The notes beneath the pieces are model-generated. The model had not been told where the DNA came from. It saw only the letters and a program-made list of their open reading frames with translations, and made no database searches. From Campylobacteraceae bacterium (GTDB taxonomy: Bacteria > Campylobacterota > Campylobacteria > Campylobacterales > Sulfurovaceae), in contig JALWZI010000055.1 of assembly GCA_027002755.1 (NCBI GenBank), positions 1 through 25,825 on the forward strand: 25,825 bases of DNA. The letters run 5' to 3'. Position 1 is the first letter of the stretch. Each line of letters starts with the position of its first letter. The translations under genes were made by a program, and so were the position numbers. Positions 4,005-13,501 of this stretch are shown here, in pieces.

Positions 4005-6446
<2,442 letters not shown>

Positions 6447-6481
6447 ATTGAGAATTGAGAATGGAGGTTTGAGAATGGAAA
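6447..6481 (+). repeat. Degenerate heptamer array ATTGAGA-type, five units
   Basis: Beginning directly after the leuS stop, the sequence divides cleanly into five 7-base units: ATTGAGA, ATTGAGA, ATGGAGG, TTTGAGA, ATGGAAA. The third unit holds GGAGG at 6463-6467 and the fifth starts with the ATG at 6475, with exactly one heptamer between them. The array thus forms the ribosome binding site and start codon of lptE. It is purine-rich on the plus strand. Confidence 0.85.
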
Positions 6482-7068
6482 TTTTTCGTCGTTTGTCGTT
6501 TGTCGTTTGTCGTTTGAATAAAAGTGTTGCAGAGCAACACCTGCCAAAATTCCTCATTCCTCATTCCTCATTCCTCATTCCGTTAATGGCGATTTTAATC
6601 GCCGTTAACGGCTGCGGGTACAGACCGGCGTCCCAATATGCCCGCCATCTTCTCCCCGATCCGGTCTATGTGGATGTGAGACTCAGCGGGGTCGAACCCC
6701 AAAACGGGGTCTATCTCAAAGAGGAGATCATGAAGGTGCTTCGGACCCATTTCCAGGAGAGGGTCGTTTCCGACAAAAAACGTTCCGTCAGTCAGATCTC
6801 CGTTCCGAACTATACGATCAGCTATTCGCCTTTGACCTACGATACCGACGGTTATGTGACCCGCTACCGGGTAACGGCCGATATCGTTTTTGAGCTCAGG
6901 ACGCCGAAGGAGACGCTGCGGAAGCGGATTTCCGCTACGGAAGATGTCAGCATCCAGCCGGGATCTCTGACCAGCACCGCGGCACGTGAATATGCCATTC
7001 GGGTCGCCATCCGCAAAGCGATGGACAACTTTATCGCCTGGGTGGCTCAAAAGGGTTACGGGAAGTGA
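6475..7068 (+). CDS. lptE: LPS-assembly lipoprotein LptE
   Basis: Probable outer-membrane lipoprotein partner of LptD in lipopolysaccharide insertion, 197 residues. The assignment rests on position between leuS and folC, a lipoprotein signal ending VNGC with Cys47 as the lipidated residue (Asn at -2 is not typical of a lipobox), and a mature domain with LptE-like pattern (GVEPQNGVYLKEEIMKVL, then alternating beta strands, then AAREYAIRVAIRKAMDNF). The start at ATG 6475 is supported by GGAGG seven bases upstream; the in-frame ATG at 6586 would leave a very short signal and no Shine-Dalgarno. Residues 5-40 are encoded largely by heptamer arrays, giving an unusually long signal region with a hydrophobic core derived from the TCCTCAT array. 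Its stop overlaps the folC start (GTGA). Confidence 0.85.
   Translation: MEIFRRLSFVVCRLNKSVAEQHLPKFLIPHSSFLIPLMAILIAVNGCGYRPASQYARHLLPDPVYVDVRLSGVEPQNGVYLKEEIMKVLRTHFQERVVSDKKRSVSQISVPNYTISYSPLTYDTDGYVTRYRVTADIVFELRTPKETLRKRISATEDVSIQPGSLTSTAAREYAIRVAIRKAMDNFIAWVAQKGYGK
6488..6515 (+). repeat. Heptamer array (GTCGTTT)x4
   Basis: Four perfect tandem copies of GTCGTTT followed by one more G. It lies inside the 5' end of lptE and encodes part of the RLSFVVCRL segment of the presumed signal region. The preceding bases (TTC at 6485-6487) are not a full unit. Confidence 0.95.
6524..6540 (+). repeat. Short perfect hairpin between two heptamer arrays
   Basis: GTGTTGC, loop AGA, GCAACAC: a 7-bp perfect stem with a 3-base loop, placed between the GTCGTTT and TCCTCAT arrays. 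Hairpins of the same geometry sit beside the arrays in folC and between moxR and the DUF58 gene. No T-tract follows, so it is not a standard terminator; it lies inside the lptE reading frame. Confidence 0.85.
6551..6580 (+). repeat. Heptamer array (TCCTCAT)x4
   Basis: Four perfect copies of TCCTCAT plus a partial TC. The reverse complement ATGAGGA is a rotation of GAGGAAT, the unit repeated three times at 12492-12512, so the two loci share a unit in opposite orientation. In lptE it encodes FLIPHSSFLIP, the hydrophobic core of the signal peptide. Confidence 0.95.
6580..6611 (+). repeat. 15-bp inverted repeat in lptE signal-peptide coding region
   Basis: CCGTTAATGGCGATT, a TT spacer, then AATCGCCGTTAACGG: a 15-bp inverted repeat with a single G-T wobble in RNA. 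It starts where the TCCTCAT array ends and stops just before the lipidation cysteine codon (6613-6615). It is a strong potential RNA hairpin about 105 bases into the lptE coding sequence. Confidence 0.85.
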
Positions 7069-8339
7069 ACCCCTCCTTTTCCGACTTCCTCGAAAGCAAA
7101 CCCCTCTACTACAAAGAGATCGATCACGAGCGGGTGCACAGAGCCTACGCACAGCTGCGTGAAGAGATCGCCCACCCTCCGGCGGTGCATATTGTCGGCA
7201 CGAATGGGAAGGGAAGCACCGGACGGATTCTTGCGTTTTTAGCGTGGCGGGGAGGGATGGAAGATGGAAGATGGAAGATGGAAGATGAAACTCCGCAAAG
7301 CGGAGAAAAAAACTCCTCACTCCTCACTCCTCACTCCTCACTCTCCGTAGGACACTACTCCTCTCCCCACATCCTCCGCTTCAACGAGCGGATCTGGATC
7401 GACGGCGAGAATGTCTTGGATGAGGTGCTGGAAGAGGGACATCGTCGTCTCTACAAGATCCTCGGGTCCGAGATGAGCGAGGCGTTGAGCTATTTCGAAT
7501 ACACCACTTTGTTGGCGCTGCTGCTTTTCGAACGCTGCGATCTGATCGTCCTGGAGGCAGGGCTGGGCGGGGAGTTCGATGCTACCAATGTGGTGGAAAA
7601 CAAAATGCTCACTGTTGTCACCCCCATCGGGATCGATCATCAGGCCTTTCTGGGAGACTCCATTGAGGCGATCGCCGAGACCAAGCTGCGCAGTATCACG
7701 CCGAACACACAGGTGCTCCTGGCCCCTCAAGCCTATGAGGAGGTGGAAAGCGTCGCCCGGAAGATCGCAAACGAACGTCATTGCGAAATCTATATCATGA
7801 AAAAAGACGTTTCAGAAGAAACGCAAACCGACACTCAAAATCCAAAATCCAAAATCCAAAATCTAAAAAAGGGTTGGCCGGAATTTCTGTGTGAGAACGC
7901 TTCGGTGGCGTTGCGGGCCCTGGATCTGCTCGATATGCCTGCCGATCCCGGGGCGTTGAAAGCGCTGGAGCTTTTCGGACGCTTCTATCCTCTTGCGGAA
8001 AATATACGCATCGATGTGGGGCATAATCCTCTGGCTGCCCGAGCGATCGTCGAGGCGATGGAGCCGGAGACGGTGCTGATCTACAACTCCCTGGATGACA
8101 AGGATTATCGAGAGGTGCTCTCGATCCTGCGCCCCAAGCTCAAACGGGTGGAGCTGATCCCTATCGAGACGCAACGGGGGGTAGCTCTGGAGCGGATCAA
8201 GGAGGCCCTGGAGGAGCTGGAGATCCCCTGGGAGTGTTTCAACGGACTGCTTTTCAGCCATGAACACTATCTGGTATTTGGCTCCTTCTATACGGTCGAA
8301 GCCTTTTTGCAATCACAAAACAGGGACCGATCGTTCTGA
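7065..8339 (+). CDS. folC: Bifunctional folylpolyglutamate synthase / dihydrofolate synthase
   Basis: Mur-ligase-type enzyme that adds glutamate to dihydropteroate or folates. Seen in 424 residues: P-loop GTNGKGS at 45-51, substrate-loop motif SSPHILRFNERI from about 99, VLEAGLGGEFDATN, and TPIGIDHQAFLGDSIEAIAETK in the central domain; the C-terminal domain includes IRIDVGHNPLAARAI. The start is GTG at 7065, overlapping the lptE stop, so translation is probably coupled. Two stretches look foreign: about 30 residues at 64-94 between the P-loop helix and the SSPH motif, encoded by GGAAGAT and CTCCTCA arrays around a hairpin, and TQNPKSKIQN at about 256-265, encoded by AAAATCC repeats. The frame is open through both and the landmark motifs are kept, so the enzyme is probably active with two extra loops. 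Confidence 0.95.
   Translation: MNPSFSDFLESKPLYYKEIDHERVHRAYAQLREEIAHPPAVHIVGTNGKGSTGRILAFLAWRGGMEDGRWKMEDETPQSGEKNSSLLTPHSSLSVGHYSSPHILRFNERIWIDGENVLDEVLEEGHRRLYKILGSEMSEALSYFEYTTLLALLLFERCDLIVLEAGLGGEFDATNVVENKMLTVVTPIGIDHQAFLGDSIEAIAETKLRSITPNTQVLLAPQAYEEVESVARKIANERHCEIYIMKKDVSEETQTDTQNPKSKIQNLKKGWPEFLCENASVALRALDLLDMPADPGALKALELFGRFYPLAENIRIDVGHNPLAARAIVEAMEPETVLIYNSLDDKDYREVLSILRPKLKRVELIPIETQRGVALERIKEALEELEIPWECFNGLLFSHEHYLVFGSFYTVEAFLQSQNRDRSF
7251..7286 (+). repeat. Heptamer array (GGAAGAT)x4 inside folC
   Basis: Four perfect copies of GGAAGAT at 7259-7286, preceded by a related GGAGGGAT. Purine-rich on the plus strand. It is translated within folC as MEDGRWKMED, a segment with no counterpart that I recognise in FolC proteins. 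Confidence 0.95.
7291..7305 (+). repeat. Short perfect hairpin between heptamer arrays in folC
   Basis: CTCCGC, loop AAA, GCGGAG: a 6-bp perfect stem and 3-base loop, placed between the GGAAGAT and CTCCTCA arrays. It has the same layout as the hairpin at 6524-6540. A run of A follows on the plus strand, i.e. a T-tract on the antisense strand, but it lies inside folC. Confidence 0.85.
7313..7340 (+). repeat. Heptamer array (CTCCTCA)x4 inside folC
   Basis: Four perfect copies of CTCCTCA followed by CTCTCC. The reverse complement TGAGGAG is a rotation of GAGGAGT, a unit found at 12520-12526 in the moxR downstream array. It is translated as SLLTPHSSLS just before the conserved GHYSSPH stretch of FolC. 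Confidence 0.95.
7808..7864 (+). repeat. Hairpin plus heptamer array (AAAATCC)x3 and one variant, in folC
   Basis: A 6-bp perfect stem CGTTTC, loop AGAA, GAAACG (7808-7823) precedes three perfect AAAATCC units (7837-7857) and a fourth variant AAAATCT (7858-7864). The array encodes QNPKSKIQN in folC. This is the second insert-like tract in the gene, again one hairpin plus about four heptamers. Confidence 0.9.
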
Positions 8340-8345
8340 ATGTGT

Positions 8346-8351
8346 TATAAA
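8346..8351 (+). promoter_or_regulatory. Candidate -10 box for mfd
   Basis: TATAAA in the 53-base folC-mfd gap would give an mfd leader of about 35 bases. No -35 box is clear, so mfd could also be read from the upstream transcript. Confidence 0.3.
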
Positions 8352-8392
8352 TTCCGCACTTTTTTACCTCATCCAAAGGCCGATTTCTAGGA

Positions 8393-11389
8393 ATGGAACC
8401 CTCAAGACTCTTTGAATACCTGAAAAAAACCTCCGCCAAGGAGCGGGCCGATCTTGTTGTCGTCCGTGATGACAAAAGCGCTGAACAGGCGGCGACCGTA
8501 GCCCGTTTCCAGGGCATTCGCCCCTTTATACTTCCTCAGCTTCGGGTCAGCCCCGGCGAGGATCTTCGCAGCTACGGACCCGAGATTCAGGAGCTTTTCA
8601 CTCAGCTTTCAAGCTATTACCGTTACCGAGAAGAGAAGCTTCTCATCGCTCCGCTTCATACGCTCAGCCTCCCGCTGCCCAAAGCGGAGTGCTTCGATAC
8701 CCGGATGCTGGAGTTCGGCGACAAGCTCGATCTAACGCAGTTCAAAGATCTCCACTATCGCTGGGGCTACCACTTCGTCGATCTGGTCAGCGAAGCGGGG
8801 GAGGTCTCGGTGCGGGGGGATATCGTGGACCTCTTCAGTCCCGGGATGGAACACCCCTGGCGGATCAGCCTCTTCGACGACGAGATCGAAAGTATCCACC
8901 CCTTCGATCCCGACACCCAGAAGCGCCGGGGGGACGAGGAGCTGGAGAGCGTGACGCTGCGGCCCGCCTTTCTGGCTCTTAGCGAAGAACAATTCAACGC
9001 TCTAAAATCCCGGGTGGAGTCCAGCCCCTGGGAGAGTTTCGTCAAAGATATCGACTCTTTGGGTCTCTGGCATCTGGAGGAGCTGGGGGTCGATCTATTG
9101 AGCGAACTTCGCAGCGTGGCTGCCGAGGATCTGAGCGAAGATCTGGACGAACTCTACAGCCTCAACAAGCCCCTGATCCCCCGGGAGAGCTATCCGGCTA
9201 CCACACTGCCCCAAGCCGGGAAGTGGCGGGATCTGGAAGTAGCCGACCCCAACAAACTCATCGAAACCCACCGGGACAAACGCATCACCGTCATCGCCCG
9301 CAGCGAATCCCTGGTGCGGGGGAGTCAGCTGGTCGATCTGGAGCGGCTCAACTTCGTCTATCAGGAGGGGATCCTCAACCTTCTGGGCCCCGACGAGCTG
9401 ATCCTCTCGCTCAACAAGCCGGTCAAACGGCGCCGCGTCAAGCGCCCCAGCCTGGTGCTGGACGAGATGCGTCCCGGCGAATACGTGGTCCACGAAACCC
9501 ACGGAGTGGGGATCTTCAAAGGGATCGAAAAGCGCGAAGTCCTGGGGGCGACCCGGGAGTTTGTGGTGATGCAGTATCAGGGCGAGGATACCCTGCTGGT
9601 GCCAGTGGAGAACCTGGAGGTGATCGACCGCTATGTGGCAGACAGCGGAACGCTGCCGGTACTGGACCGCCTGGGCAAAGCCAGCTTCAAACGTCTCAAA
9701 GGCAAGGTGCGGGAGAAGCTCTTCGCCATCGCTTCCCAGATTATCAACATCTCTGCACAGCGGATGCTCCAAAAGGGGATCCCCCTGCGGGTCGATCCGG
9801 CGGAGCACGCTCTTTTTCTCTCCCAGGCGGGTTTTGAGCATACTGAGGATCAGATGGAGGCGATCCGGCAGATCATGGAGGAGCTTGCCAGCGGCCGGAT
9901 GATGGATCGGCTGCTCAGCGCGGATGTGGGCTTCGGCAAGACCGAGGTGGCGATGAACGCCATCTTCGCCGCGGTGCGCAGCGGCTACCAGGCGATGATG
10001 GTGGTTCCCACGACACTGCTGAGTGCCCAGCACTTCCGAAGTCTCAAGGAGCGCTTCGCCCCCTGGGAGATTGAGGTGGCCCAGCTTGACCGCTACACCA
10101 CGCCCAAAAACAAACGGGAGATCCTGCGCCGCCTGGAGACGGGGGAGCTGCAGGTCGTGGTGGGCACCCATGCCCTGCTGGGGGCTAAGTTCAAAAACCT
10201 GGCCCTGGTGGTCGTCGACGAAGAGCACAAATTCGGCGTCAAACAGAAAGAGGCGCTCAAAGAGATGGCGGTCAATGTTCATCTCCTCTCGATGTCCGCT
10301 ACTCCGATCCCGAGATCGCTCAACATGGCGCTTTCGAAGATCAAGAGTTTCAGCGAGATCCTCACGCCGCCGACGGAGCGGGTGGGGGTACGCACCTTTG
10401 TGAAGAGTTTCGATAAGGCCGTCGTCAAGGAGGCGATCCTGCGGGAGCGCCGCCGGAACGGGCAGACCTTCTACGTCTACAACTCCATCGCCGGGATCGA
10501 GGAGAAAGCGCGGCAGCTAAAAGAGCTGATTCCCGATCTGCGCATGACGGTGCTCCACTCCAAGATCAGCGCCGCGGCGACCGAAAAGGAGATGATGAAA
10601 TTCGAAGCGGGGGAGTACGACCTGCTGCTTTCCACCACCATCGTCGAGTCGGGGATCCATCTGCCCAACGCCAACACGATGATCGTCGACGGGGCCGAAA
10701 ACTTCGGCATCGCCGATCTGCATCAGCTCCGGGGCCGGGTGGGCCGGGGCGGCCGGGAGGGCTACTGTTATTTGCTCGTCGAAGAGAAGGAGCATCTGCC
10801 CGAGAATGCTTGCCGACGCCTCCTGGCCCTGGAGAGCCATTCGGAGCTGGGCAGCGGGGCGGTTCTGGCCTTTCACGATCTGGAGATCCGGGGCGGAGGC
10901 AATCTCATCGGCGAAGCCCAGTCGGGCCACATCAAACAGATCGGCTACAGCCTCTATCTGCGGATGCTCGAAGACGCCATCCGGGAGCTCAGCGGCCAGA
11001 AGGAACAGGCGGAGCGGGGCGTGGATATCAAACTCCAGGTCGATGCCTATCTCAGCGACGAACTCATCGGCGAAGACCGCCTCCGCCTGGAGCTCTACCG
11101 CCGCCTGGCTCAGGCCGAGAGTGTGGCGGAGGTCTATGAGATCGAAGAGGAGATCGCCGATCGCTTCGGCAAGCCCGATACCGTCACCCGTCAATTCATC
11201 GAGATGATGGCCATCAAAGTCCTGGCCAGAGAGCGGGATATCAGCAAAGTCTCCAGTTACGACGAGCGGGTCTTCTTCGAATTCCACGACGGCCGGGACC
11301 GTGTGATCCTCAAGGCCCCCAGCAAAGACGACGACGATATCCTGGCGACGGCCATGGGTTATCTCCGGGCGGAGAAGGCTTCAAGCTAG
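8393..11389 (+). CDS. mfd: Transcription-repair coupling factor Mfd
   Basis: ATP-dependent translocase that removes RNA polymerase stalled at DNA lesions and recruits UvrA. It has 998 residues, in the range I expect for this phylum. Domains in order: UvrB-like N-terminal module; CarD-like RNA polymerase interaction domain from about residue 355 (GEYVVHETHGVGIFKGI); superfamily 2 helicase lobes with Walker A GFGKT at 513-517, DEEH at 609-612, motif III SATPIPRSL, and motifs V/VI in TTIVESGIHLPNANTMIVD and LHQLRGRVGR; C-terminal TRCF domain. The ATG at 8393 is used; AGGA lies too close to be an ideal Shine-Dalgarno, while AAAGG further upstream is rather far, so initiation may be weak. Neighbourhood near folC resembles Campylobacter. 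Confidence 0.98.
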   Translation: MEPSRLFEYLKKTSAKERADLVVVRDDKSAEQAATVARFQGIRPFILPQLRVSPGEDLRSYGPEIQELFTQLSSYYRYREEKLLIAPLHTLSLPLPKAECFDTRMLEFGDKLDLTQFKDLHYRWGYHFVDLVSEAGEVSVRGDIVDLFSPGMEHPWRISLFDDEIESIHPFDPDTQKRRGDEELESVTLRPAFLALSEEQFNALKSRVESSPWESFVKDIDSLGLWHLEELGVDLLSELRSVAAEDLSEDLDELYSLNKPLIPRESYPATTLPQAGKWRDLEVADPNKLIETHRDKRITVIARSESLVRGSQLVDLERLNFVYQEGILNLLGPDELILSLNKPVKRRRVKRPSLVLDEMRPGEYVVHETHGVGIFKGIEKREVLGATREFVVMQYQGEDTLLVPVENLEVIDRYVADSGTLPVLDRLGKASFKRLKGKVREKLFAIASQIINISAQRMLQKGIPLRVDPAEHALFLSQAGFEHTEDQMEAIRQIMEELASGRMMDRLLSADVGFGKTEVAMNAIFAAVRSGYQAMMVVPTTLLSAQHFRSLKERFAPWEIEVAQLDRYTTPKNKREILRRLETGELQVVVGTHALLGAKFKNLALVVVDEEHKFGVKQKEALKEMAVNVHLLSMSATPIPRSLNMALSKIKSFSEILTPPTERVGVRTFVKSFDKAVVKEAILRERRRNGQTFYVYNSIAGIEEKARQLKELIPDLRMTVLHSKISAAATEKEMMKFEAGEYDLLLSTTIVESGIHLPNANTMIVDGAENFGIADLHQLRGRVGRGGREGYCYLLVEEKEHLPENACRRLLALESHSELGSGAVLAFHDLEIRGGGNLIGEAQSGHIKQIGYSLYLRMLEDAIRELSGQKEQAERGVDIKLQVDAYLSDELIGEDRLRLELYRRLAQAESVAEVYEIEEEIADRFGKPDTVTRQFIEMMAIKVLARERDISKVSSYDERVFFEFHDGRDRVILKAPSKDDDDILATAMGYLRAEKASS

Positions 11390-11530
11390 TCCTGCAAAAA
11401 TCTACTTTATCTATGAATAAAGTTGCCGCATCAAAGTTTGAGATAGTTACATGGTGCGGTGAGAATATTAATCCTTAGTTAAACTCCCTCAAGTAGAATC
11501 CTGATAACAATAAATTTTTAGGAGTCTTGT
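11390..11530 (+). promoter_or_regulatory. mfd-moxR intergenic region with inverted repeats and candidate promoter
   Basis: This 141-base AT-rich gap holds three small inverted repeats: ACTTTAT/ATAAAGT at 11404-11423, TCAAAGTTTGA at 11431-11441, and CCGCA (11426-11430) pairing with TGCGG (11455-11459) around it. None is followed by a T-tract, so a terminator is not clear. A possible -10 box TAGAAT lies at 11494-11499, about 30 bases before the moxR start, followed by the strong TAGGAG Shine-Dalgarno. This is the likely promoter region of the moxR/bat cluster. Confidence 0.4.
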
Positions 11531-12475
11531 GTGGAGACGATCAACAGAATCAGAAACGAGGTCCACAAGGTCGTGGTCGGCCAGGAGAAGATGGTCGAAG
11601 CGCTCCTGACCGGCTTGCTGACCCGGGGGCATATTCTCCTGGAGGGGGTGCCGGGTCTGGCCAAGACCACCACGGTCAATGCGCTGGCCAAAACCCTGGG
11701 CCTGACCTTCAAACGAGTGCAGTTTACCCCCGACCTGCTCCCCAGTGACATCATCGGCACCGAGATCTACGATCCCACCAACAACACCTTCAAGATCAAA
11801 AAAGGTCCCGTCTTTACCAACCTGCTCCTGGCGGACGAGATCAACCGGGCCCCGGCCAAGGTCCAGTCGGCCCTGCTGGAGGTGATGCAGGAACGCCAGG
11901 TCACCATCGGGGACGAGACCTTCAAGATCTCGCTGCCTTTCCTGGTCATGGCGACCCAGAACCCGGTGGAACAGGAGGGGGCCTACGAGCTGCCCGAAGC
12001 CCAGCTGGACCGCTTCATGATGAAGGTGGTCGTGGGCTACAACACCCGGGAAGAGGAGCTGGAGATCGCCCGCCGAGTCGCCAATAACGCTTTCGAAGCG
12101 ATCGAGCAGGTGGCCACCATCGAGGATCTGGACCGTCTGCGTCGGGAGGCGATGCAGGTGCATATGGACGAAGAGATCGAAAAGTACATCGTGGAGCTGG
12201 TCTTCGCCACCCGGGAGCCGGAGAAGTACGGCCTGGAGAAGATCAAACCCTACATCGAGTTCGGCGCCTCGCCGCGGGCCAGTATCGATATGTACAAAGC
12301 CGCCCGGGCCGTCGCCTACCTCAAGGGACAGGATTTTGTCTCCCCCATCGAGATCGCCTACATCGCCAAAGAGGTGCTCCGTCACCGGATCATCCTCAGC
12401 TACGAGGCCCAGGCGGAGGAGATCAGCCAGGATTGGATCATCGAGCAAGTCCTGGCAGCAGTACCGATCCCGTAG
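11531..12475 (+). CDS. MoxR family AAA+ ATPase, first gene of the bat cluster
   Basis: A 314-residue MoxR-type AAA+ ATPase, thought to act as a chaperone or metal-insertion helper for von Willebrand A proteins encoded beside it. Walker A GVPGLAKT at 39-46, Walker B LLADEINRAPAKVQ from about 99, sensor stretch ATQNPVEQEGAYELPEAQLDRF, and a C-terminal lid domain (GASPRASIDMYKAARAVA). The start is GTG at 11531, six bases after GGAG. Downstream come a DUF58 gene, batA, batB, a TPR gene and batD, the classic MoxR/Bat order linked to aerotolerance or envelope stress in other bacteria. The stop codon lies inside a small hairpin and a repeat-filled 198-base gap follows, so expression of the following genes may be partly uncoupled. 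Confidence 0.95.
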   Translation: METINRIRNEVHKVVVGQEKMVEALLTGLLTRGHILLEGVPGLAKTTTVNALAKTLGLTFKRVQFTPDLLPSDIIGTEIYDPTNNTFKIKKGPVFTNLLLADEINRAPAKVQSALLEVMQERQVTIGDETFKISLPFLVMATQNPVEQEGAYELPEAQLDRFMMKVVVGYNTREEELEIARRVANNAFEAIEQVATIEDLDRLRREAMQVHMDEEIEKYIVELVFATREPEKYGLEKIKPYIEFGASPRASIDMYKAARAVAYLKGQDFVSPIEIAYIAKEVLRHRIILSYEAQAEEISQDWIIEQVLAAVPIP

Positions 12476-12480
12476 ATCGG
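12464..12480 (+). repeat. Hairpin spanning the moxR stop codon
   Basis: CCGATC, loop CCGTA, GATCGG: a 6-bp perfect stem whose loop and second arm contain the moxR TAG stop. No T-tract follows, so it is a weak candidate terminator or mRNA-stabilising structure. Confidence 0.5.
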
Positions 12481-12484
12481 CACT

Positions 12485-12533
12485 GCCGAGTGAGGAATGA
12501 GGAATGAGGAATTAGGAGTGAGGAGTGACGGAT
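12485..12533 (+). repeat. Heptamer array GAGGAAT-type, seven units
   Basis: In one continuous 7-base phase: GCCGAGT, GAGGAAT three times, TAGGAGT, GAGGAGT, GACGGAT. The centre is exact and the ends are decayed. It is purine-rich on the plus strand and forms the left arm of the element between moxR and the DUF58 gene. Its units are the reverse complements, after rotation, of those in lptE (6551-6580) and folC (7313-7340). Confidence 0.9.
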
Positions 12534-12534
12534 T

Positions 12535-12551
12535 GCGTTTTTGCAAAACGC
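12535..12551 (+). repeat. Short perfect hairpin next to heptamer array
   Basis: GCGTTTT, loop TGC, AAAACGC: a 7-bp perfect stem with a 3-base loop, the same geometry as at 6524-6540. It directly follows the GAGGAAT array. About 70 bases of AT-rich sequence with no recognised content (12552-12620) separate it from the right array. Confidence 0.85.
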
Positions 12552-12620
12552 CTATTATTTTTGAAAAAGAGGTATTTATTCGTGAACAGTAAAATAATTT
12601 TCGTAGAAAATTTTTCAATA

Positions 12621-12652
12621 ACTACTCACTACTCACTACTCACTACTCACTC
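12621..12652 (+). repeat. Heptamer array (ACTACTC)x4
   Basis: Four perfect copies of ACTACTC plus a partial ACTC. The reverse complement GAGTAGT differs by one base from GAGGAGT in the left array, so the two arms form an imperfect long inverted repeat around the AT-rich core. It ends directly at the hairpin covering the DUF58 start site. Confidence 0.95.
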
Positions 12653-12676
12653 GTATTTCCGGGAGGAAATACGATG
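12652..12676 (+). promoter_or_regulatory. Hairpin enclosing the ribosome binding site of the DUF58 gene
   Basis: CGTATTTCC (12652-12660), loop GGGA (12661-12664), GGAAATACG (12665-12673): a 9-bp perfect stem immediately followed by the ATG at 12674. The Shine-Dalgarno GGGAGG is split between loop and stem, so folding in the mRNA should limit ribosome access. This could set a low or regulated translation level, for example temperature- or protein-dependent. The structure is read directly; its function is inferred. Confidence 0.7.
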
Positions 12677-13501
12677 AATATCGTCGCCAAAAAGATCACC
12701 CTCAAGACCCGCAAGCAGGTCTTCGGCGAGATGCTGGGGAACAACGCTTCTCTGTTTCAGGGGGAGGGGTTCGAGTTCGCCGAGCTGCGGGAGTATATCT
12801 ACGGTGACGATGTCCGCAAGATCGACTGGAAGACCACTGCGAAGCTGCGCAAACCCTACGTCAAGATCTACCACGAAGAGCGGGAGCTCAATGTGGTGGT
12901 CTCCACGATGCTCAGCGGTTCGACCTGGTTCGGGACGCAGCGTCCCAAGAGCGAATACATGGCCGAGCTGCTGGCGGTCCTGGGTTTTTCGGCGGTGAAA
13001 AACAGCGATCTCTTTACCCATCTGCTCTATGCCGACCGGCTCTACCGGATGAGCCGCCCCTCCAAGAAGCTCTTTTCCGTCACCAAGGAGCTGGAGGAGG
13101 CGCTGGCCTTCGATCCCCTGGGCAAAGAGGCGGATTATGCCGGCTGGAGCGATACCCTCTATCGGCGTGTGAAGAAGAAGTCCCTGATGTTCCTGATCGG
13201 GGATTTCGTGGGAGAGGTGGACCTGCGGCTCCTGAGCCGTAAACACGACCTCTTCGTCATCATCGTCCGGGACCGTTTCGAAGAGCACCCCAGATCCCTG
13301 GGCTATCTCCGCCTCGTCGATCCCGAAAGCGGCGAGAGCTTCGAGGGGGATATCAATGAGGGGGTCATGGCCGAATACCGCAAAGCGATGGTGGCCAATG
13401 ACCGCCGCCTCTATCGGCATCTGCGGAAAAACGGGATCCGCTACGTCAAACTCTATACCGACGAAGACCCCTTCGCCAAACTGATCAAGAGGATGCGATG
13501 A
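12674..13501 (+). CDS. DUF58 domain protein of the moxR/bat cluster
   Basis: A 275-residue soluble protein with the DUF58 signature GEGFEFAELREYIYGDDVRKIDWKTTAK (in part) followed by PYVKIYHEERELNVVV, residues about 33-75. The remainder resembles a von Willebrand A-like fold, which DUF58 proteins often show, although the expected acidic DxSxS metal motif is replaced by STMLSGST, so metal binding may be lost. No signal peptide or membrane segment is seen. It is the usual partner gene of MoxR ATPases; the molecular role is unclear. Start ATG 12674 has an ideal Shine-Dalgarno GGGAGG, but this lies in a hairpin. Its end overlaps the next gene by four bases (ATGA), suggesting coupled translation. 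Confidence 0.93.
   Translation: MNIVAKKITLKTRKQVFGEMLGNNASLFQGEGFEFAELREYIYGDDVRKIDWKTTAKLRKPYVKIYHEERELNVVVSTMLSGSTWFGTQRPKSEYMAELLAVLGFSAVKNSDLFTHLLYADRLYRMSRPSKKLFSVTKELEEALAFDPLGKEADYAGWSDTLYRRVKKKSLMFLIGDFVGEVDLRLLSRKHDLFVIIVRDRFEEHPRSLGYLRLVDPESGESFEGDINEGVMAEYRKAMVANDRRLYRHLRKNGIRYVKLYTDEDPFAKLIKRMR

Follow-up and report, generated by a model that had tools for sequence, protein, structure and literature searches.

What places seven short arrays of 7-base units at four separate sites within one stretch of a campylobacterial genome: slippage acting independently at each site, or the spread of a single dispersed element? The stretch in question (hereafter the window: 25,825 nucleotides, contig C55 of genome G000, GenBank JALWZI010000055.1) comes from a 1.57-Mb metagenome-assembled genome (MAG), 75.6% complete, of a Nitratifractor-type member of the Sulfurovaceae, a marine sulfur bacterium. 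Comparison with related genomes indicates that the four sites are probably members of one non-autonomous family of miniature interspersed elements. Each unit has an arm of 31 bp, equal to 4 3/7 repeats of a 7-base word and to about three turns of B-DNA, then a YGGT linker of 8 nt, a hairpin with a 7-bp stem and a 3-nt loop, and a T-rich tail. Many unrelated sites share common boundaries, inward-facing arms, a nested order and stem changes on both sides, and the word turns over at the orthologous sites compared. New copies appear to be placed within older ones, a pattern that ordinary slippage does not account for.

An earlier, sequence-only reading of the window reported the seven heptamer arrays, and a scan for perfect repeats (at least 2.9 copies) found them at 6488-6516, 6549-6581, 7256-7287, 7312-7343, 7836-7863, 12491-12512 and 12621-12651, a list with which Tandem Repeats Finder (TRF) agreed. 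Perfect arrays of any other period from 4 to 15 were absent from the window, and no period-7 array arose in 200 Markov shuffles of it; a mismatch-tolerant scan added one array of period 12 and one of period 18. The reading counted five arrays with exactly four perfect copies, a figure that needs amending: six hold four complete perfect copies, and the array at 12491 holds three. Its plan of four-copy arrays captured arrays that are real, but the length of the arm is 31 nt rather than simply four copies. The short perfect hairpin that it described at each site was found at all four (6-7 bp; 6524-6540, 7291-7305, 7808-7823 and 12535-12551), and the relations it drew between units of different sites by reverse complementation and rotation are correct.

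The 7-base period is nearly exclusive in related genomes as well. In 420 kb taken at even steps from G020, a closed genus-mate of the window MAG (one contig, 2,101,285 bases), 56 arrays had period 7 and five had period 8, with at most one array for each other period from 4 to 20; one second-order Markov shuffle of G020 produced a single period-9 array, and another produced none. Samples of G038, G053, G103 and G048 held 15, 12, 10 and 7 period-7 arrays, respectively, and no more than one of each other period. Mismatch-tolerant arrays in G020 ranged from 17 to 193 nt (27-33 nt in 49 of 76), and 27 heptamer words were used among 70 arrays. In the window's own MAG, a degenerate heptamer pattern occurred in 22 places on 13 contigs. 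Four consecutive copies of CTCNNNN (the CTC pattern; overlapping positions counted, some single matches likely arising by chance) matched at 157 positions in this MAG and at least once in 97 of 150 family genomes. The contigs sampled from this MAG (L103-L122, mostly short) contained few arrays, one in 80 kb at the strict threshold; our guess is that its short contigs break at elements, and the array counts for this MAG may therefore be underestimates.

Hairpins occupy a set position relative to many of these arrays. On the inner side of 20 of 73 arrays in G020, a perfect 6-bp hairpin was found within 45 nt, and in 13 of these 20 the spacing to the array was exactly 8 nt, where shuffling predicts 0.8. 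Likewise, 13 of 28 gaps between convergent arms contained a hairpin, compared with 1.7 in shuffled sequence and 2.3 at random places. The linker and hairpin were captured in a covariance model (R1) built from 26 of 43 candidate cores preselected for a hairpin, with other offsets, other loops and near copies left out. In the training rows, the stem was 99.5% paired and had double-sided changes at six of seven pairs, statistics that lean towards structure because the copies were preselected for the hairpin. When arrays were instead picked by the GGT linker alone (31 of 124, many of which also sit in the training set), 22 of the 31 paired at six or seven of the seven positions (2.6 expected). Among 23 R1 matches outside the training set, including two orthologues of window sites, 21 were preceded on the 5' side by an array no more than 70 nt away (background 2%), the distance being at most 4 nt in 20 cases and 43 nt in one, and the remaining two had no array; this test used 40 of 54 R1 matches, after 13 from heptamer-fetched loci and a window match at E 0.72 were dropped. 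Within the window, R1 matched site 1, a training copy (44.6 bits), and sites 3 and 4, which lay outside the training set (27.1 and 26.5 bits), with no further match below E 0.7; site 2 has a different hairpin of its own and gave no R1 match.

The length of the arm emerged from an alignment, anchored on the hairpin, of 96 distinct R1 copies found in G020, in the window's own genome and in genomes of three further genera. They represent 97 matches, with the same 14 matches, the orthologous loci L023 and L024 and the repeats L227, L228 and L230 dropped; nine of the loci fetched for this comparison (L226-L234) had originally been found via an array-containing query. Identity at a lag of 7 was 0.29 at position -31, 0.42 at -30 and 0.81 at -29, staying between 0.64 and 0.97 from -29 to -6, and the sharp rise at -29 therefore sets the arm at 31 nt. 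This outer boundary was not built into R1, because the model holds just the last two bases of the arm, and beyond -30 no base was dominant in the 96 copies. Walking back from the core copy by copy placed the start exactly at -29 in 23 copies and between -44 and -8 in the others, a scatter that arises because single mismatches and chance matches shift the estimate. In composition, the arm reads as RRT five times and a GDRD-like stretch four times. The 96 copies had 28 consensus words, and four identical units were present in 20 of them; adjacent units agreed at 0.78-0.92 within copies versus 0.56-0.74 when units were shuffled among copies, with agreement increasing towards the hairpin largely in line with composition. 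The tag near the stem was GGT in 84 copies, GTAG in nine and CGTC in none. Facing cores were found in L153 and L155, and many cores had no facing core.

Arms also obey a rule of orientation (an arm is scored + where G exceeds C). In seven groups of loci totaling about 720 kb, neighbouring arrays no more than 200 bp apart were convergent in 32 cases and divergent in none, with 13 pairs ++ and five pairs --. At a looser threshold with 150-bp linking, there were 70 clusters (in this set, the G000 loci had been retrieved by a heptamer pattern, a small number of loci overlap, and orthologues are included among the groups), nine of single orientation (++ or --) and 61 of two orientations. A nested order of + arms followed by - arms (for example, ++-- or +++---) was seen in 59 of the 61, the exceptions being +-+-- and ++-+-. 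The words of the outermost arms were at a distance of 0-1 in 17 of 58 clusters, versus about 10.7 in swaps, and a subset of sites with matched arms is possible. Genes flanking the arrays in G020 (this and the gene starts and ends below are from simple open reading frame [ORF] calls) were convergent in 17, divergent in 13 and tandem in 18 of 48 cases, and gene ends were not clearly preferred.

At the orthologous sites compared, the word turns over while the length stays nearly constant, which is the opposite of slippage. Among named genomes, MAGs with the labels Campylobacteraceae, Nitratifractor and Sulfurovum have the FolC closest to that of the window. Site 2 of folC is occupied at the same position in loci L023-L026. 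Locus L024 has the window's words and a hairpin with one base changed, and L025 has the left word and hairpin of the window with a mixed right arm. In L023 and L026, the right-arm words differ (AAAATCC and CTACCCA) and the hairpins are altered on both sides of the stem (CTCCGC/GCGGAG versus CTTTCGC/GCGAAAG). The site is empty in L028, L029, L030, L032, L034 and L035 and holds shorter inserts in L027, L031 and L033. A C-strand arm lies at the same position in lptE in L023-L028, L033 and L034; with the window included, five words that differ by more than rotation occur there. In L030, L031 and L032, no such arm was found. A third comparison (site C) concerns the start of a gene that, judged by a sequence motif, is dxr-like. 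Here, G020, G053, G070 and G046 retain a pair of similarly long arms with unrelated middles and with AGAATTG/ATTCTCC or GATGTTG/ATCCAAA as word pairs, and G038, G064 and G081 have more complex clusters.

Further hairpins abut the outer ends of arms, and some of them repeat the start of the neighbouring gene in inverted form. A perfect hairpin of at least 7 bp lay within 6 nt of 17 of 114 outermost arms (with no gap in 12); the inner sides gave six of 114, and random places 0.45. The sampled stretches held 21 perfect hairpins of at least 11 bp, seven of which abutted arrays. Often, the beginning of the adjacent gene forms one side of the arm-abutting hairpin, and an inverted copy of it beside the arm forms the other, as is probably the case at the start of the DUF58 gene in the window. 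In three sets of orthologous starts, picked after the effect had been seen in G020, a perfect stem of 7-23 bp spanned the start in 14 of 20 cases with an array within 90 nt and in none of five without an array, and these stems track each species' own coding sequence. Stems of at least 9 bp were present at nine of 52 ORF starts near arrays (one being the core of an element) versus one of 468 elsewhere, or eight of 52 versus one of 468 with that core removed (Fisher P = 5e-8); the same test at ORF ends gave four of 62 versus 13 of 470. Stems beside the lptE arm spanned 10-15 positions in the window and in L023-L027, with several different sequences, and eight positions in L028 and L033, and none was present in L034 (up to one mismatch and G-T pairs were allowed, and 4.4% of random places reach 10). 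The inverted gene starts would be consistent with fold-back DNA synthesis; selection for hairpins at start codons is the rival explanation.

The R1 unit was found solely in the window's family among the genomes and records searched. Among family genomes, 53 of 150 carried it when up to 46 candidates were scored in each; under stricter filters and with 23 candidates scored for each, it was present in seven of 298 genomes drawn from the phylum, all seven from that family; 80 named Campylobacterota loci (1.13 Mb) gave six matches, in L023, L024, L025 and L027. Within the genus, R1 occurred in all nine genomes with at least 26 matches to the CTC pattern and in none of the four with zero to three (G010, G029, G058 and G076 have no core); the groups within the genus may be separate clades, and these counts are therefore not independent. 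Searches for enzymes or for known elements that could account for the family gave no consistent partner. At E ≤ 0.001, the reverse transcriptase domain RVT_1 (PF00078) was found neither in the complete G020 nor in any array-rich genus member, and was present in two genus members without pattern matches (G010 and G058) and in array-rich genomes outside the genus (G005, G048, G101, G103 and G136). The Y1 transposase domain PF01797 was found in 114 of 150 family genomes, including the array-rich G020, G038, G053 and G064, and was absent at the same threshold from the array-rich G046 (99% complete), G081, G070, G086 and the window MAG (G000). Ku had no match in 13 genus genomes, which rules against Ku-type end joining. 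Rfam at gathering thresholds returned only one tmRNA across three sources, a phage search for the element gave just two weak records, and window site 2 had no match in plasmids.

Several observations weigh against a single mobile family and must be set beside this evidence. In G020, 53 of 73 arrays lack a perfect inner hairpin within 45 nt, and hairpins on the outer side are nearly as frequent (12 of 73 arrays); flanks of equal length contain a hairpin in 8.5 of 28 cases versus the 13 of 28 inside gaps. Two long perfect arrays in G020 (106 nt at L148:13307-13412 and 193 nt at L150:4201-4393) mean that slippage acts on some arrays, and these two have perhaps expanded in that way. Six genomes elsewhere in the family (G001, G004, G022, G048, G059 and G071) gave no R1 match despite 16-36 CTC-pattern matches. 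The reverse transcriptase, Y1 and Ku searches revealed no mobilising gene, no movement was observed, and none of the compared loci provided a clean filled and empty pair at base resolution. Outermost words were no closer within clusters than among swapped arms (2.55 versus 2.53, P = 0.59, 58 clusters), and complementarity between arms of one site was no better than after swapping (-12.0 versus -13.4, standard deviation 1.4, 32 pairs). The two halves of a site therefore look largely independent and are possibly the products of separate events; a single, coevolving long stem formed by both arms, suggested by folds in G048, was not supported by the arm swapping. Finally, a Bacteroides locus (L247, 8521-8611) contains a divergent pair by the G > C rule.

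Taken with these points, the evidence still favours the reading of the sites as copies of one element family. Two units would face each other with their hairpins inside, like the halves of a REPIN (a doublet of repetitive extragenic palindromic, or REP, sequences). A DNA enzyme acting in trans would move or re-make the units, and new units would enter at the centre of old ones, at the hairpins, an order of entry that would leave rightward arms to the left of leftward arms. DNA synthesis primed by ends that fold back at a break or nick could give rise to the inner hairpins and to the inverted gene starts seen at outer junctions, and could also keep each arm internally uniform. Most likely, the elements are selfish or neutral, and the lptE and folC copies lie at positions where an insertion is tolerated by the protein. 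We consider it unlikely, in comparison, that the elements are written rather than merely copied, by a repair or replication activity that uses folded-back DNA ends to make the hairpins, reverse-copies the gene start and iterates a 7-base template to 31 bases on each inward 3' end. If this were true, arms would acquire new words where they stand and growth of the element would proceed from its centre, a telomere-like logic in bacteria where no reverse transcriptase was found. As the sequence-only reading proposed, the arrays belong to one dispersed family on a plan of purine-rich array, hairpin and pyrimidine-rich array, given the near-exclusive period of 7, the convergence and the fixed spacing in the genus samples. 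Neither outcome that it had named as refuting was obtained: arrays are common elsewhere in the window's own genome, and hairpins exceed the numbers in shuffles. The pairing of array and hairpin that it described is fixed in many copies but does not extend to the arrays without a perfect inner hairpin, and is blurred by frequent outer hairpins. That reading is right, and it underestimates the order present.

The sequence-only reading had also set aside independent slippage. As a rival explanation, polymerase slippage would favour heptamers through the footprint of the polymerase, and the hairpins would be ordinary nearby terminators. Heptamers are over-represented among bacterial simple sequence repeats and a polymerase-contact hypothesis is in print (PMC4692102, PMC4679880, in the accessible parts of both), and a few long arrays and frequent hairpins outside arms would fit. 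This explanation nonetheless appears quite unlikely: arms of the R1 family are 31 nt long with a sharp outer end, words change and length is kept at the orthologous sites compared, arms follow the orientation rule with fixed spacing of linker and hairpin, and the arrays of G020 have no clear gene-end preference; independent slippage was rejected on the fixed length and the word turnover. It is doubtful, too, that the elements are selected regulatory RNA, with hairpins or CU-rich arms that sequester the ribosome-binding site or bind a regulator such as CsrA, Csp or S1. Outer hairpins often span the start codon, including that of the window DUF58 gene, and can by eye contain a purine stretch resembling a ribosome-binding site, and a translational role has been proposed for TAACTGA repeats (PMC4679880, accessible part). 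Under such selection, however, one would not expect the nested order or arms within the lptE and folC coding sequences, nor does it sit well with the unclear gene context, the 28 words among 96 copies and the genus members that have no core.

Two enzymatic systems offer other origins. A telomerase-like reverse transcriptase with a short RNA template might extend the two 3' ends at a break with the word before head-to-head joining. The inward G-rich strands and uniform words do resemble a head-to-head telomere fusion, and some array-rich genomes outside the genus encode a reverse transcriptase. We regard this as extremely improbable: RVT_1 was found neither in G020 nor in any array-rich genus member, the two genus members carrying it have no pattern matches, Ku was not found in 13 genus genomes, and the 27 words among 70 arrays of G020 would require many templates. 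With RVT_1 missing from array-rich genus members, the idea is unsupported. Ordinary REPINs moved by a REP-associated tyrosine transposase (RAYT, a Y1 HUH transposase) would account for inverted hairpin doublets in mainly intergenic DNA, and Y1 proteins are common in the family. This is very unlikely, however, given the tag counts above, which are dominated by GGT rather than GTAG or CGTC, and several array-rich genomes without PF01797, for which reason RAYT was rejected as a requirement.

How does the family relate to short repeats already described? Work on REPINs and REPs is reportedly that of Bertels and Rainey (2011) and of Di Nocera and others (2013). As described in the accessible parts of PMC3116915 and PMC3733652, REPINs and the GTAG and CGTC REPs are short, tagged hairpins that form inverted doublets and have many intergenic copies, some lying in genes, and the CGTC REPs are without a known transposase. 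The window family resembles them in its palindromic hairpins, convergent arms and inverted doublets, but differs in having 31-bp heptamer arms outside each hairpin, a YGGT linker instead of GTAG or CGTC, a nested order and no required link to a Y1 gene; by tag and transposase tests, it is not a REP or REPIN family. Against the features of miniature inverted-repeat transposable elements, the arms are inverted in orientation, but their words differ. The small dispersed repeats (SDRs) of Nostoc were reportedly described by Elhai (2008) as hairpins of 21-27 nt with compensatory changes, embedded in tandem heptamers and showing nested insertions. By that description, the window family shares small hairpins with compensatory changes in heptamers and may be related in kind to SDRs, whereas a fixed 31-nt arm, the linker spacing and convergent arms are not known to be features of SDRs.

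A paper whose first author is said to be Rehm concerns G-rich heptamers in Xanthomonas and Nostoc. In its accessible part (PMC4692102), these arrays mostly have four units (2-26 in all), are dispersed and mainly intergenic, and form 70 and 75 convergent pairs in two Xanthomonas genomes; that part describes a single word class (GGGAATC) and no hairpin core, whereas the window family has both many words and a core. The TAACTGA repeats of Beggiatoaceae (MacGregor 2015, PMC4679880) are intergenic heptamers distributed patchily across phyla, with one word, mostly just upstream of a start codon and, in the accessible part of that report, with no hairpin core described. Short tandemly repeated repetitive sequences and other simple heptamer repeats differ from the window family, which varies its word and keeps its length at the orthologous sites compared and across the 96 copies, although a few long arrays exist. 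A literature search of limited depth recognised no description of hairpin-linked heptamer arrays in Campylobacterota, in line with the novelty suggested by the sequence-only reading, but convergent heptamers themselves had already been reported in Xanthomonas. We place the family among the short interspersed hairpin elements, as a new variant.

Heptamer arrays of other make were also seen. Those of G048, from another genus (L123-L127), have many words with five fixed and two free positions (GCTCTNN) and a hairpin of the type GTGGC-NNN-GCCAC, so that the family seems to have versions per genus. A plasmid record of Bacteroides finegoldii has two convergent 31-nt arrays of AATGAAG type, 96 bp apart, in the coding frame of carA (L247:6001-6158), and one array close to 31 nt long is present in a Phocaeicola record. 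The word recurs in eleven IMG/VR viral contigs in arrays of 31-84 nt (the pattern required at least 31); with lengths varying there, the 31-nt rule is claimed for the R1 family alone. The Bacteroides and Xanthomonas arrays therefore extend the theme of convergent heptamers beyond Campylobacterota.

In the window itself, three of the four sites are coding, one in the LptE leader and two in loops of FolC, and the fourth lies between moxR and the DUF58 gene; the 31-nt frame given here for six arms was read by eye. At site 1, a degenerate outer left arm of AATTGAG/AATGGAG words runs from the end of leuS (6446-6476, + strand; TRF and a lag-7 run), followed by an inner arm of GTCGTTT words within the lptE leader (6488-6516; perfect-array scan). 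The R1 core of its right arm (6515-6550, - strand; cmsearch E 1.9e-7) joins the linker TTTTGGCAGG to the 7-bp hairpin at 6524-6540, and the 31-nt right arm (6549-6579, - strand; AATGAGG words on the G strand; array scan and copy alignment) is abutted by an outer hairpin that folds with 14 pairs including G-T and a loop of 4 in the LptE leader coding sequence (6580-6611). Site 2, established by array or hairpin scan and orthologue comparison, comprises a left arm of GAT-GGAA words in frame within folC (7256-7286, + strand), the hairpin CTCCGC-AAA-GCGGAG (7291-7305; CTTTCGC-AAA-GCGAAAG in L026) and a right arm with GAGGAGT words on the G strand (7312-7342, - strand), both arms being 31 nt. Site 3, also inside folC, has an R1 core (7798-7834, - strand; hairpin 7808-7823; cmsearch E 7e-4) and a 31-nt arm with GAT-TTTG words on the G strand and a changed last unit (7833-7863, - strand; array scan).

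Site 4 comprises, after moxR, a 31-nt left arm reading AATGAGG, AATGAGG, AATTAGG, AGTGAGG and AGT (12496-12526, + strand), an R1 core (12525-12560, + strand; hairpin 12535-12551; cmsearch E 9.3e-4) and, upstream of the DUF58 gene, a 31-nt right arm of ACT-ACTC words (12621-12651, - strand), both arms coming from the array scan. Between this arm and the DUF58 start codon, the hairpin scan placed CGTATTTCC-GGGA-GGAAATACG (12652-12673), which may be an inverted copy of the region before that start codon. The genes named in the window by Pfam and NCBIfam encode leucyl-tRNA synthetase, LptE, FolC, an Mfd-type helicase, a MoxR-type AAA ATPase and a DUF58 protein. Those at the sites, all on the + strand, are lptE (6475-7068; PF04390, 2.6e-11), whose leader peptide is encoded by site 1 and whose start codon was chosen by us; folC with its two in-frame array insertions (7065-8339; TIGR01499, 1.1e-75, with no Pfam match at 1e-4); the moxR-type gene (11531-12475; PF07726); and the DUF58 gene (12674-13501; PF01882). 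In the Sulfurovum relatives L028, L030 and L033, a REPIN-like GTAGGGGC...CCCCTAC insert replaces the heptamer element in the site-3 loop of folC, and this one protein loop can thus house short elements of two different kinds. Palindromes resembling REPs, of the GGGACTTCAGTCCC / GCGACTAAAGTCGC type, occur at about 9270-9360 of L130 and at L160:4421-4438, some within heptamer elements.

Why long simple repeats in bacteria so often use a 7-base unit is a long-standing question. In this family, the heptamer unit goes together with an arm of measured length, a hairpin, a direction and a nested order, and the question becomes one about a definable element with boundaries. The lineage-specific inverted gene starts at some of its junctions suggest that fold-back DNA synthesis takes part in forming the elements.

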